Shown: one piece after another, positions 9,182 to 61,725 of the stretch
Layout of the letters: each line of letters starts with the position of its first letter
Position numbering within the stretch: position 1 is the first letter of the stretch
Made by a program: the position numbers and the translations under genes
Notes under the pieces: model-generated
Database searches by the model: none
What the model was told of the DNA's origin: nothing
What the model saw: only the letters and a program-made list of their open reading frames with translations
Assembly (NCBI GenBank): GCA_944324455.1
Contig: CALUWJ010000001.1
Location: 62,001 to 126,000 of the forward strand
Source: Candidatus Gastranaerophilales bacterium
GTDB lineage: Bacteria; Cyanobacteriota; Vampirovibrionia; Gastranaerophilales; Gastranaerophilaceae
Reading direction: 5' to 3'
DNA: 64,000 bases

Positions 9182-11335
9182 CTATTTTTTACTCAAAGCA
9201 ATCAATCCATCTATATCGATTTTTGAAAGATTATTGCGAGAAACTCCCGTTTTAATATAATCGGTAATTTTAGGTAAAGAATAATTTTTTGATAAAAGCC
9301 CTAATTCTTTCATTCTTAATGTTTTATATGTTTCAGAAAGATATTCATTATATTTTTTATATGTCTCAGGGTCCATACCTTTAATTAAATCATATATTTC
9401 AGAATACTGTGTATCTGCTTCAGTAATTTTTCCTGTTACAATATCATAAGGAACATGTTCAACATCAGCAAAAGAATTAACTTCACTTCCTCTTATTTGC
9501 AATTCACCATTTACAATTTCACCATTATTTAAAGTATGCTTTGTATTCATTTGAGCTGAAGTATAGCCTGATTCTTTTATTGCACTTCCTGTTTTTTGTA
9601 TAAATTCGACCTCTGTATCATCAGAAGATTTTTTAACCCATTTTACTTTGTTATTAGGTAAAATCTCATTTTCCTGCAAATCAAACATATTTGAATTTGT
9701 AACCACTGAAAAAGGTTCATCTGAATTAAATACTTTATTGATAACAGCTTCATTATAAGCTTCAAGTATTTCTGTAACCTGTTTATTTGAAAAATAAGAA
9801 GTTATTTCATCTCCGTAATTATTCAATTCTGTAATGTTAACAGTACCTTTTTTAATACCTTCACACAATTGGTCAACAGTACTTTGAGTTTGCTTTTCTT
9901 TAAGAGCACCCAAAATATCTTCTTTTAGAGTTGATAAAACTAATTCTTTTTCATCGCTAATTTTATCGCCTTTAATATATTTTACAAAATCCTTGTAAGT
10001 TGCACTTACTCCTGATTCTTTAAGCATAGATTCAACAATTTCACGAGTTTCTTTTTTATCAAGGCTTTTCATTTGTATTCTTGTGCCTATTGCATCCCCT
10101 ATGACATTAGAACATTTTTCCATTGAATCTAAAACCTCGCCATTAGCTAAATTTTTCTTAGCTAACTTTGAAAAAGTAGATTTTTGACTTTTTGATCTTG
10201 CTGTAATTATTTTAATATCGTCATTATTTGAAAAAGCATCGTTTATTTGAAGTGCAGTTTCATCTAATTGAGAATCAAATTTTTTAGCTAAAACTTCTGA
10301 TTTTTGAGATAAATCAATCAATTCATCGGTTTTTAGAGAATAAATATCATCTTCTATAATTGCTTTTGAAGGATTATTTTTATTGTAATTATCAATATAA
10401 CTTTTAACTTGAGCTTCATTATCAATTTTAGCATCAAGGTTTTTATTGTGTGATATTTTAAATTTTACTTCAGGTGTTGAATTATTTAATTGATACTGTC
10501 CTAAGCTATTTGAAAGACCTCCGAATAAACCGCCAAAAGCAGCACCTGACAGAGCATTTTGTGCTGTTGTTGTTATTAAATCAGATACTTTAAACTCTTT
10601 TTCATCTGCAACCGTGTTTATTGTATAATCTGCTGCACCAGTCGCAGCACCTGTTATTGCACCTGCTTTTGCACCTTGTACCACTCCTTGTTTTAGTGCT
10701 TGTTTTACTGCTTGCCCTGCAATAGGAGCTTTGACAATTCCGGCGGTTGCTGCTGATACTAATCCATCAACAGCTCCTGTTATTCCGTCTTTTGCTATTT
10801 CTTTAACATCAAGAGCATCATTTTCAATATTATTTGTTGCTCTATCCAGTGTTTTTAATCCTGCATTTGTAACTCCGCCAATAATAGCACCTGCAACAAG
10901 AGCGCCGACACCGCCTGTTGCAATGGCAAACCCTGCAGTAGTTAACCCTGTTGCAGTATTAGAAATTATACTAACTGCGCCTTCTTGTTTATTTTTATAG
11001 CTCTCAATAGCCTCATTTGCTTCTTCAAAAGTAATTTCACCCTTTTTATATTGTTCGATTTTTTCTGATACATCATCTGAACTCAAACCAAGATTTGTTA
11101 AATTTTTAAACCCGTTCCAGATTTGTCCTATAATTCCTTGTTCATCCTGCACATCTTCAAAAGCTTCATTTAGCAAATCTACATTTTCTGAAATTGAATT
11201 GGTTGAAGTATTATTTGCGCTAAAAATTGATGATTTATCATCTAAATCATTTGAATTTAAAACATCATAAGATTTATTTCCTTTTAATGACGTTGAAACA
11301 CCATATAAGTCTAAATTTATACTGCAATCATCCAT
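9182..11335 (-). CDS. Toxin-like protein: glycine-rich hydrophobic region plus RelA/SpoT-type pyrophosphokinase domain
   Basis: 717 residues. After a polar N-terminus, residues about 120-280 are rich in Gly and Ala, with several hydrophobic stretches (AGFAIATGGVGALVAGAIIG, GAKAGAITGAATGAADY, ALSGAAFGGLFGGL), like the glycine-zipper segments of polymorphic toxins. The C-terminal part has RelA/SpoT synthetase landmarks: ITARSKSQKSTFSKL (R380, K382, S386, K390), DAIGTRI (D414), ESGYTSAQ (590-595), GELQIRG (E611, Q613, R615) and DVEH (626-627). The usual GYxSxH has Gln for His. There is an unusually long insert between DAIGTRI and GYTS. HD, TGS and ACT domains are absent, so this is not the housekeeping Rel. 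The start is at 11335 after AAGAGAGA. Confidence 0.75.
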   Translation of the reverse strand: MDDCSINLDLYGVSTSLKGNKSYDVLNSNDLDDKSSIFSANNTSTNSISENVDLLNEAFEDVQDEQGIIGQIWNGFKNLTNLGLSSDDVSEKIEQYKKGEITFEEANEAIESYKNKQEGAVSIISNTATGLTTAGFAIATGGVGALVAGAIIGGVTNAGLKTLDRATNNIENDALDVKEIAKDGITGAVDGLVSAATAGIVKAPIAGQAVKQALKQGVVQGAKAGAITGAATGAADYTINTVADEKEFKVSDLITTTAQNALSGAAFGGLFGGLSNSLGQYQLNNSTPEVKFKISHNKNLDAKIDNEAQVKSYIDNYNKNNPSKAIIEDDIYSLKTDELIDLSQKSEVLAKKFDSQLDETALQINDAFSNNDDIKIITARSKSQKSTFSKLAKKNLANGEVLDSMEKCSNVIGDAIGTRIQMKSLDKKETREIVESMLKESGVSATYKDFVKYIKGDKISDEKELVLSTLKEDILGALKEKQTQSTVDQLCEGIKKGTVNITELNNYGDEITSYFSNKQVTEILEAYNEAVINKVFNSDEPFSVVTNSNMFDLQENEILPNNKVKWVKKSSDDTEVEFIQKTGSAIKESGYTSAQMNTKHTLNNGEIVNGELQIRGSEVNSFADVEHVPYDIVTGKITEADTQYSEIYDLIKGMDPETYKKYNEYLSETYKTLRMKELGLLSKNYSLPKITDYIKTGVSRNNLSKIDIDGLIALSKK

Positions 11336-22120: not shown

Positions 22121-22149
22121 AACAAGGCTCTTTTTTAAAGAGCCTTGTT
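22121..22149. terminator. Bidirectional terminator containing the tspO stop codon
   Basis: Perfect 13-base arms AACAAGGCTCTTT (22121-22133) and AAAGAGCCTTGTT (22137-22149) with a 3-base loop. It serves the plus-strand secreted protein and the minus-strand tspO gene. The last codons and stop of tspO lie inside the hairpin. Confidence 0.9.
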
Positions 22150-22530
22150 TAATATTAAATAACCAAAGTTCAAATAAGTTGCAAATAATATCCACAAAAA
22201 ATACGGTATAAGTAAAATTGCAGAAATTTTTGAAACCGAATAAAATTTTTTAACGGTCAAAAATACGAAAATATCTAAAAATATAACAACCACAAAGGCA
22301 AGCAGTATATTTTTCAAATAAAAAAACGAAGGTGTCCACAAAAAATTAAAACCTAATTGAATAAAAAAATACACATAACCCAAGTTTTTATTTTCACTCT
22401 TTTTTAAAAAATAAACTATAAAAGAAGCAAAAATTAAAACATACAAAACACCCCACACAGGCGCAAAAACATAATCCATTGGCGCAAATGGAGGTTTTAT
22501 TAATGTATTAAACCATAATTTATCTATCAT
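22135..22530 (-). CDS. TspO/MBR family tryptophan-rich membrane protein
   Basis: 131 residues with five membrane helices. Family motifs are WFNTLIKPPFAPMDYVFAPV then WGVLYVLI at the N-terminus, FFIQLGFNFLWTPSFF in the middle, and IPYFLWILFATYLNF at the end. TspO proteins bind porphyrins and sterol-like ligands in the bacterial membrane and are linked to stress and tetrapyrrole handling. The ATG at 22530 lacks a ribosome site; a TGCTAAAAT ends six bases upstream, predicting a leaderless mRNA. It is slightly shorter than typical TspO (about 150-160 residues). Confidence 0.85.
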   Translation of the reverse strand: MIDKLWFNTLIKPPFAPMDYVFAPVWGVLYVLIFASFIVYFLKKSENKNLGYVYFFIQLGFNFLWTPSFFYLKNILLAFVVVIFLDIFVFLTVKKFYSVSKISAILLIPYFLWILFATYLNFGYLILNKAL

Positions 22531-22545: not shown

Positions 22546-22888
22546 TTTTTTATTGTATAAATAATTATCCGCAATTTTAGCTTTAAAGATAATTAAATTT
22601 CACAATTAAATATATTATTTAAACTAATATATTTAATCATCTCCCGCCAAAGCTCAACGCTTGCCGCATGCATGCTCCTGTAAAATTTGCATGTAGTGCA
22701 ATTTTTACGCACCCCAAGGGCATTTCCAATCCGTAAAGCTCACAAGTTCGCTAACGGATTGTGGGCATTGCTTGAGTCCAGTGTCACAGTAGCCCACCAA
22801 GCTCCACGCTTGCTGTGCTACTGCTCACATCCTTCTGCCTTTTTATTCTCGTCTAAGTCCGTCGGACTAAGACTCGAATTTCAAAGGT

Positions 22889-22952
22889 TCGGAACACACC
22901 TATGCCTTTCTCGTTTTCGCCAAGCCAAGTCTGGCTAGGCTCAAACTTCGAA
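22889..22952. repeat. 64-base direct repeat, copy 1
   Basis: Identical to 22997-23060. It starts TCGGAACACACC and ends ACTTCGAA, with an internal GCC-A-AGCC/GGCT-A-GGC stem-loop. Confidence 0.9.
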
Positions 22953-22996
22953 TCGGTACGGTTTCTCAAACGCCAAAGCTCCACGCTTCGGCGTTC

Positions 22997-23060
22997 TCGG
23001 AACACACCTATGCCTTTCTCGTTTTCGCCAAGCCAAGTCTGGCTAGGCTCAAACTTCGAA
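22997..23060. repeat. 64-base direct repeat, copy 2
   Basis: Identical to 22889-22952, 108 bases further on. It ends 3 bases before the stop codon of the minus-strand oxidoreductase gene. Confidence 0.9.
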
Positions 23061-23063
23061 AGG

Positions 23064-24056
23064 TTATTTTGAACGAGAAATTTTAAATTCGTGATTATCC
23101 AATGCCTCTTTTTTAGCACCAAGCATCATATTTTCAGCACTTTCTAAAATTTTCACAATCATATATCCGTTCTCACCATCAGAACGAGGGGTTTTATTGT
23201 GTTCAATGCAATTTAGAAAATGTTGACATTCAAGTTTTAATGGTTCAATTTCAAGATAATCAAAAACTTCAATATCTTTTTGCGAATTTTTCTTATTATC
23301 GTAAACTTTTAACTTACCTTCTTGCAATGTATCATCTAATATTGCAGTTGCCTTTGTACCTCTGACCAATAGGGCAACTCTTTTTTGAGGGTGAATCCAA
23401 CTGTCTGAAACTTGACCTATTAAACCATCTTCAAATTCAATAGTAAGATGAGTTATATCAAAAATATTTTCAAATTCACTTGCAACCCCAACAGCATTTA
23501 ATACCTTTAGAGGTGCTTTTCCTGTAACATGGGCAATCATAGAAACATCATGCGGAGCTAAATCCCACATAACACTTCTATCATTTTTAAAATAATTGAT
23601 ATTTAATCTATCAGACTGAGCATATTTGATTTCACCCAAAACTCCTTGAGCTATAAGCATTTTTAATCTATTTACCGCCGGATGATATAACAAAAGATGA
23701 CCAACCAAAAGCTGTACATCCATTTTTTGAGCCAATTCTTTGAGTTCAAGTGCTTCTTGACTGGAAGTTGAAATCGGCTTTTCAACATAAACATGTTTTC
23801 TTGACAGTAAAGCTTTTTTTACAAGTGAAAAATGCGTATGACTAGGAGTTACAATGCAAAAAGCCTTAACATCGGGGTTATTTAACAGGCTGTCAAAATC
23901 GCTTGTTGTTTCAATATCTGAATACAATTCATTTATCATCTTTAAATTTTCTTTATCAAGGTCGCAAACACTATGAAGTGCGCCAAGATTATAAAAATTT
24001 CTAACTATATTTTTTCCCCATATTCCGCAGCCAACAACTGCAACGCATTTTTTCAT
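23064..24056 (-). CDS. Gfo/Idh/MocA-family oxidoreductase
   Basis: 330 residues. The N-terminal Rossmann fold has VAVVGCGIWGKNIVRNFYN and later YVEKPIS, the family's substrate-side Glu-Lys-Pro motif. The C-terminal domain (LSSxx-like WDLAPHDVSMI) carries the catalytic-type His-Asp. These NAD(P)-dependent enzymes oxidise or reduce sugars or UDP-sugars; this one resembles the WlbA/UDP-N-acetylglucosaminuronate 3-dehydrogenase-like group by size, but substrate is unproven. The start at 24056 has GGAAAA. Its 3' end abuts the repeat island. A polysaccharide role is suggested by the WecG/TagA-type gene next door. Confidence 0.85.
   Translation of the reverse strand: MKKCVAVVGCGIWGKNIVRNFYNLGALHSVCDLDKENLKMINELYSDIETTSDFDSLLNNPDVKAFCIVTPSHTHFSLVKKALLSRKHVYVEKPISTSSQEALELKELAQKMDVQLLVGHLLLYHPAVNRLKMLIAQGVLGEIKYAQSDRLNINYFKNDRSVMWDLAPHDVSMIAHVTGKAPLKVLNAVGVASEFENIFDITHLTIEFEDGLIGQVSDSWIHPQKRVALLVRGTKATAILDDTLQEGKLKVYDNKKNSQKDIEVFDYLEIEPLKLECQHFLNCIEHNKTPRSDGENGYMIVKILESAENMMLGAKKEALDNHEFKISRSK

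Positions 24057-60312: not shown

Positions 60313-61725
<1,413 letters not shown>

Follow-up and report, generated by a model that had tools for sequence, protein, structure and literature searches.

The question raised by this locus is why a GC-rich chain of hairpins lies between two genes of an AT-rich genome, and whether it represents a mobile palindromic element or a structured RNA. The window, by which we mean the whole stretch of 64,000 nucleotides that was analysed, belongs to a 1.76-Mb Gastranaerophilales MAG, and the chain of imperfect hairpins (the island) occupies 22645–23063, which we take as approximately its real edges. Its GC content is 0.499 against 0.295 across the window, where other 421-nt stretches reach 0.428 at most, in agreement with the foreign composition claimed in the first-pass annotation. 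The claim of at least seven stems was borne out by the single-stranded DNA fold of 22640–23065, which has an energy of −76.8 kcal/mol compared with −48.0 ± 4.3 kcal/mol in 100 shuffles (z = −6.65). The repeats that had been reported were all located, namely three AAGC-TC(A/C)AC-GCTT hairpins (22645–22662, 22794–22811, and 22971–22988) and two identical 64-nt copies (22889–22952 and 22997–23060) whose starts are 108 nt apart. Raised GC was also observed at 60801–61600 and 10401–11200 of the window, neither of which was matched by the island query.

The island fills the gap between two ORFs of the minus strand. A 131-aa membrane protein, presumably TspO/MBR-like, is encoded at 22135–22530 with its 5′ end facing the island, and a 330-aa protein, which we take from its own sequence to be oxidoreductase-like, is encoded at 23064–24056 with its 3′ end fused to the island.

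Side-by-side reading of islands defined modules of about 55–60 nt belonging to several classes, and the order in the window, read on the plus strand, is A0 (cut)–C–D–A2–B1–(A 3′ remnant)–B2–A1–B3. A0 (22645–22670) is a truncated A module with the core hairpin AAGC-TCAAC-GCTT, its 3′ arm being interrupted by module C; a junction of this kind, with a gap of about 15, was seen in other islands too. Module C (22673–22709) reads TGCTCCTG–hairpin–TTACG, and module D (22710–22767), which reads CACCCC..CCAATCCG-loop-CGGATTG..GGGCA, sits within the 3′ flank of C (ACG–D–T.GC versus ACGTCGC). The fold z values of single modules range from −3.2 to −5.1, except for D, which does not fold significantly by itself (z = −1.9). 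The complete module A2 (22776–22832) consists of GTCCAGTGTC, an imperfect hairpin with the loop TCCAC, and CTCACATCC; its RNA fold gives z = −4.8 on the plus strand and −5.1 on the minus strand, and it scores 59.9 bits with the covariance model R1 described below. It is followed by B1 (22833–22887), an imperfect hairpin with the loop GTC and a conserved A.A mismatch (z = −4.8 for 22833–22890). A 3′ remnant of an A module ending in GGAACACACC (22888–22900) forms the start of the first 64-mer and precedes B2 (22901–22956, loop AGTC). The second complete A module, A1 (22955–23008), reads GGTACGG–hairpin with the loop TCCAC–ACACACC (z = −3.6 on the plus and −4.4 on the minus strand for 22955–23007; 43.3 bits with R1). 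The chain is closed by B3 (23009–23063; z = −4.7 for 23007–23063), whose final base is directly adjacent to the stop codon that ends the 330-aa gene.

In general form, an A module has a 5′ foot GTACGG or GTCCAGT, an imperfect stem with the apical loop TC[ACT][ATC]C closed by C-G, and a 3′ foot CACACACC or CACATCC. The B module that follows it begins with TATGCC or TTNYGCC, continues with a stem of three to four sections and the loop GTC, AGTC, or CCT, and ends in ...CAAAAGG, while module C has the form TGCTCCTG–hairpin–TACGTCGC. We also noted other classes besides A–D, designated E, H, and the tRNA-end unit. The E element (L009:1-290, L014, L109, L110) is larger and contains hairpins of the C and A types inside an outer stem, TTCTTCTTTT..GTTCACTTTTCTT / AAAGAAGAAAAGTGAACAA.

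The order of modules is nearly fixed, head to tail: C(–D)–A–B–C–A–B. In islands tokenised with patterns of our own making, C was followed by A in 41 cases, D by A in 23, and C by D in 11, always with a gap of 10 nt (11/11), and the remaining successions were rare or absent (C-to-C 1, D-to-C 1, D-to-D 0). The count of 245 of 246 on one strand in these tokenised islands is partly circular, owing to the strand of each island being set by the majority of like sequence. An independent measure of polarity is given by the covariance-model hits: adjacent A modules within 400 nt lie on the same strand in 26 of 26 cases in the genus and in 19 of 21 cases in other genera, the two exceptions being inverted A neighbours in L225 and L226. 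This arrangement also accounts for the 64-nt copies, each consisting of the 3′ end of an A module and most of a B module. Junctions resembling this A–B junction recur in other islands, where successive A modules are commonly spaced by gaps of about 107 nt; the 108-nt duplication, which had been taken to suggest recent duplication or active maintenance, is not special but one among many A-to-B repeats.

The island is one of dozens in its genome. Blast searches with the window island and two other islands gave 38, 87, and 49 matches in the same genome (the three sets overlap), and of the 27 further genomes of the genus 20 gave DNA-level matches, as against 0 of 30 genomes outside it; an assembly artefact at this point, which the first-pass annotation had offered as a refutation, is contradicted by this recurrence. 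Many matches lie at contig ends, indicating that the repeats seem to break assembly. A pattern search for module D returned 39 stretches, of which 33 were titled Gastranaerophilales or plain "uncultured bacterium"; the D-pattern carriers are placed among Candidatus Gastranaerophilales MAGs. The six otherwise-titled stretches (L056, L068, L070, L074, L077, L080) had no R1 hit and were taken as chance.

Model R1, a covariance model built from alignment A1 of A modules, extends the range beyond DNA-level similarity. It recovers three genomes missed at the DNA level (G001, G003, G024) and finds A modules in 26 of 117 genomes and 14 of 41 genera of the family, with 1 to 44 per positive genome. An order-wide draw gave 32 positive genomes out of 192, all matches listed belonging to the same family; fewer candidates per genome were scored in that draw, so its counts are lower (29 versus 44 in the host genome, G000), and the genomes listed for the two scans do not include G017, G019, G020, and G022. 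Copy number in these scans is high in G000, G027, and G021 and in genera g52 and g55, and many relatives gave no hit. A distant blastn search of phages and plasmids with window 22640–23065 gave no match in either. The A–B junction pattern occurs in four stretches of viral contigs, only one of which scored, and weakly, with R1 (15.8 bits, E = 0.093); this was taken as chance. No prior description of these modules was found in searches of the open-access PMC literature.

What is conserved among these copies? In 74 distinct A cores selected by the 3′ box only, pairing amounts to 49–95% per position against shuffle means of 35–69%, and the same 7-mer cores without the box (n = 58) show little excess. 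Alignment A1 contains 36 sequences picked on the basis of boxes and loop without regard to the stem; it was drawn from 38 reduced A sequences with the addition of window:22953-23012 and the removal of L123:3306, L125:2920, and L045:1545 (chimeric or long). Its paired cells amount to 82.8% versus 59.0% in shuffles, double-changed cells to 99 versus 31.5, and the covariation score to 0.536 versus 0.155 shuffled and at most 0.132 slid. Alignment A2, comprising 43 distinct rows, all of them from other genera of the family, gives 94.2% paired cells, 152 double changes versus 35.8, and a covariation score of 0.762 versus at most 0.132 slid, values that lean toward pairing, as A2 was fitted to the model built from A1. 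In the hits from other genera, the loop and boxes are retained and the stems are new. When segments were chosen only by their end boxes, the fold reached z < −2 relative to shuffles in 16 of 28 cases in the genus and 19 of 27 in other genera; the B segments, which include some spurious ones, reached this level in 42 of 78 cases. The compensatory changes that the first-pass annotation had proposed looking for in relatives are thus present in the stems, and since A stems have been rewritten with such changes, and again in other genera, single-strand folding appears to be under selection.

The features that stay constant are the module ends, the apical loops (C-TC[ACT][ATC]C-G in A; GTC, AGTC, or CCT in B), and some mismatches amid changing pairs: A.A in B (CTAAG/CTAAG, CTAAC/GTAAG, CCAAG/CTAGG) and C.C or C.T in A. 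On the basis of these alignments, we read selection as favouring an imperfect folded strand rather than a perfect DNA palindrome.

Covariation together with conserved loops and mismatches would also fit RNA. If transcribed at the 3′ end of an mRNA or tRNA, the modules may carry hairpins that serve to stabilise, process, or regulate the transcript, or whose conserved loops are recognised by an RNA-binding protein, and their spread would then be a side effect. Two strand comparisons point in this direction: contacts with gene or tRNA 3′ ends read on the minus strand in 23 of 34 cases, and plus-strand A.C mismatches, which are G.U on the minus strand, outnumber G.T by 21 to 11, but both ratios are weak. 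Islands also fold better on the minus strand, but so do shuffled islands (70/81), so this preference is explained by composition. A search of 4227 Rfam families against the window and four loci returned, above the gathering score, only a tRNA and an SRP RNA, outside the modules, and thus no match within the modules of these five sources. The island has no terminator-like site: no GC hairpin followed by a T run occurs within 22640–23065, the one candidate being at 22464–22448. A copy number of 0 to 44 in related genomes would be odd for a needed regulator. Overall, we regard a primary role as RNA, the main rival to mobility, as possible but rather unlikely.

Islands are intergenic and often touch stop codons or the CCA end of tRNA or tmRNA; within 60 nt of an island there are gene 3′ ends in 26 of 58 cases and 5′ ends in 9 of 41. 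At tRNA-Ala, tRNA-Lys, and tmRNA ends identified by ARAGORN, the B end lies within 16 nt, the tRNA-Ala contact representing one orthologous site in four genomes. The tRNA-Lys site carries a chain in G000 and plain AT-rich DNA with no module in the close relatives G017, G019, and G022. At tmRNA-type sites, the last 13–17 nt of the RNA gene and the trailer are repeated around hairpin units. No clean shared target-site duplication could be defined, and none is common to sites other than tRNA/tmRNA ends. Duplicated tRNA/tmRNA 3′ ends with trailers were observed at L047:1200-1780, L113:1-330, and L028:1-260, and at the tRNA-Lys loci L192 (G010) and L202 (G007), a different hairpin (CTCTGCCG..CGAGAGGG-like) is flanked by the same kind of end duplication. 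As a separate observation, the 3′ end of a gene that we take to be groEL from its GGM repeat borders a module repeatedly (L023:3700-4120, L281, and L223, the last in another genus), and the final codons of groEL are mimicked by the end of the module itself (TTTTACATCATTCCC) in L023 and L281.

The stop codon orthologous to that in the window is followed by this island in G000, by a different chain in G022, by a fragment in G019, and by none in G017, in a comparison that leaves out loci between about L164 and L170; the corresponding site in G020 holds what looks to us like a decayed remnant. The next gene past this stop codon also differs between relatives. Judged from the aligned sites, such differences between close relatives appear to be marks of turnover, and the presence/absence pattern could also reflect loss. 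The orientation of islands relative to neighbouring genes has a weak bias (23 versus 11, or about 15 versus 9 with orthologues merged by hand), so neither a strict RNA rule nor a strict rule of insertion polarity is proved. Taken together, presence/absence at the tRNA site, mosaic reshuffling, and gene-end location support the mobile half of the initial proposal of "a mobile palindromic element or structured RNA" better than the RNA half, for which the strand tests are weak.

We therefore consider the island to be, probably, a copy of a non-autonomous, multi-module interspersed mosaic hairpin repeat of one Gastranaerophilales family, spread in trans; islands resemble passive mobile elements of small size. 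What was observed is the recurrence of copies, covariation, ordered and polar chains, placement at gene ends, and polymorphic sites, to which we add, by inference, movement in trans by an enzyme that would read the folded strand. Such an enzyme would recognise the loop, boxes, and mismatches of a folded single strand, not the stem sequence, and would insert or copy modules beside gene ends. Chains may grow and reshuffle via insertion into existing chains, recombination or template switching between like modules could give duplicates such as the 64-mer, and selection would tolerate modules where genes stay unbroken. Against mobility, no mobilising enzyme was found and no excision or insertion event was caught; a look for a transposase between paired islands (L133, L225, L226) gave only ordinary or short ORFs.

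More tentatively, and with less confidence than in mobility as such, we suggest a new class of non-autonomous element, in which hairpin modules would be recognised by loop, foot boxes, and mismatches and added with one polarity at gene 3′ ends, including the CCA end of tRNA/tmRNA with end duplication, to form ordered chains. If true, this would imply a strand- and structure-specific enzyme, possibly RNA-templated. The recognition rule is directly testable, because natural variants separate what is conserved (loop, boxes, mismatches) from what can change (stem sequence), and the same hairpin has been rewritten independently many times. The islands also bear on the assembly of gut Gastranaerophilales genomes, since they are found at MAG contig ends.

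The modules could have been spread by the reverse transcriptase of a resident, likely diversity-generating retroelement (DGR): the host encodes such an enzyme together with TR-like repeats, and the likely target genes are often followed by islands or E elements. RVT_1 was detected in 12 of 28 genomes but is absent from the island-rich G019 and G022, which makes this source extremely improbable. The likely DGR itself (L111:2784-5489; L106:702-2561; L096, L097, L103, L107, L021) comprises, in this order, a 133-aa ORF, a 381-aa reverse transcriptase, and two TR-like repeats rich in adenine, together with several target-like genes of 2 kb; in one of these genes we read a prepilin-type N-terminus and a domain that is repeated and looks variable. 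Next to the E element, after likely DGR target genes, there is a TTGGGCGAAAGCCCAA hairpin.

In comparison with known systems, the closest in behaviour are the REP, BIME, and REPIN repeats. The cited sections of PMC3733652 and PMC3116915 describe REPs as extragenic imperfect palindromes in mosaic clusters with a preference for gene 3′ ends, and the modules are likewise short imperfect palindromes, extragenic, present in many copies, clustered in mosaics near gene 3′ ends, and patchy among relatives. These shared traits would suggest mobilisation as REP/BIME by a RAYT, a Y1 tyrosine transposase. But Y1_Tnp PF01797 was detected in only 1 of 28 genomes of the genus and not in G000 (it was detected in 5 of 14 control genomes), the module foot carries no GTAG, the conserved 5′ box of A in alignment A1 being GTACGG or GTCCAG, and the modules are arranged head to tail, adjacent A modules lying on the same strand (26/26 and 19/21) and not mainly in opposition, whereas REPs form mainly head-to-head dimers according to the cited part of PMC3733652; we consider action of a RAYT here very unlikely. 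The modules also differ from REP/BIME/REPIN in forming several ordered classes, about 55–60 nt long, in which loop and ends are fixed and stems vary. An ordered, polar, multi-module version of the REP type would thus exist in a genus nearly without RAYT genes.

A second REP class lacks a known transposase, as the modules do, and shares their palindromic form and gene-end location. As given in the cited sections of Di Nocera et al. (2013, PMC3733652), these CGTC-tagged REPs include Rickettsia RPE-4/6 and Neisseria dRS3 and have the tag beside an 8–9 bp stem with A-T first pairs, a loop of 4–5, and a CCA tail. CGTC-REPs are also present in the genus, beside islands. By inspection, the A hairpin lacks the CGTC foot tag, A-T in the first two pairs, the CCA tail, and head-to-head dimers, while ACGTCGC is the 3′ flank of module C.

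A side observation concerns the CGTC-REPs of the genus themselves. Genes for a 96-aa GIY-YIG protein and relatives of at least 65% identity have CGTC-REPs on both sides at 6 of 6 loci, the nearest at 5–68 nt (L275:679-969 in G000, L045:951-1235, L279:1929-2216, L281:1915-2202, L138:3514-3801, and L252:1489-1773), a count in which the sites of G001 and G003 may be one and the same; no such repeats flank the GIY-YIG hits whose identity is 54% or less (0/8). At five of the six loci, hairpin-chain modules also occur no farther than about 600 nt away. The G019 copy contains an in-frame stop, and the protein gave no match to phages. Judging by this linkage, the small GIY-YIG nuclease is a candidate for the missing enzyme of CGTC REPs, a lead rather than a result, in a class without a known transposase (PMC3733652) and among REP-type repeats, which are a classical puzzle.

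Integron attC sites are bounded by R and L boxes of the form RYYYAAC..GTTRRRY. The modules resemble attC in their general features, with conserved unpaired bases in imperfect mismatched hairpins, structure conserved more than sequence, and head-to-tail arrays; islands lie beside tRNA ends, and one lies beside a XerC/D-like gene (L031, by eye), as might be expected of an integron-like array used by a tyrosine recombinase. By inspection, no attC-type R/L box ends are conserved in alignment A1, the boxes being unlike attC R boxes as we know them, and the modules have a conserved apical loop. Gene cassettes are lacking between modules, and the integron integrase TIGR02249 exceeded the cut-off in 0 of 28 genomes, with only partial Xer-like hits; an array of this kind is highly improbable. 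Like MITEs, as these are generally understood, the modules are short, non-autonomous, intergenic, and foldable, but they are chained, neither terminal inverted repeats nor a target-site duplication common to them could be defined, and no parent element was found. Thus, the nearest known kind in behaviour is REP/BIME/REPIN, and the modules work like a REP-type mosaic that we do not file as REP because the hallmarks of both the GTAG and the CGTC class are missing.
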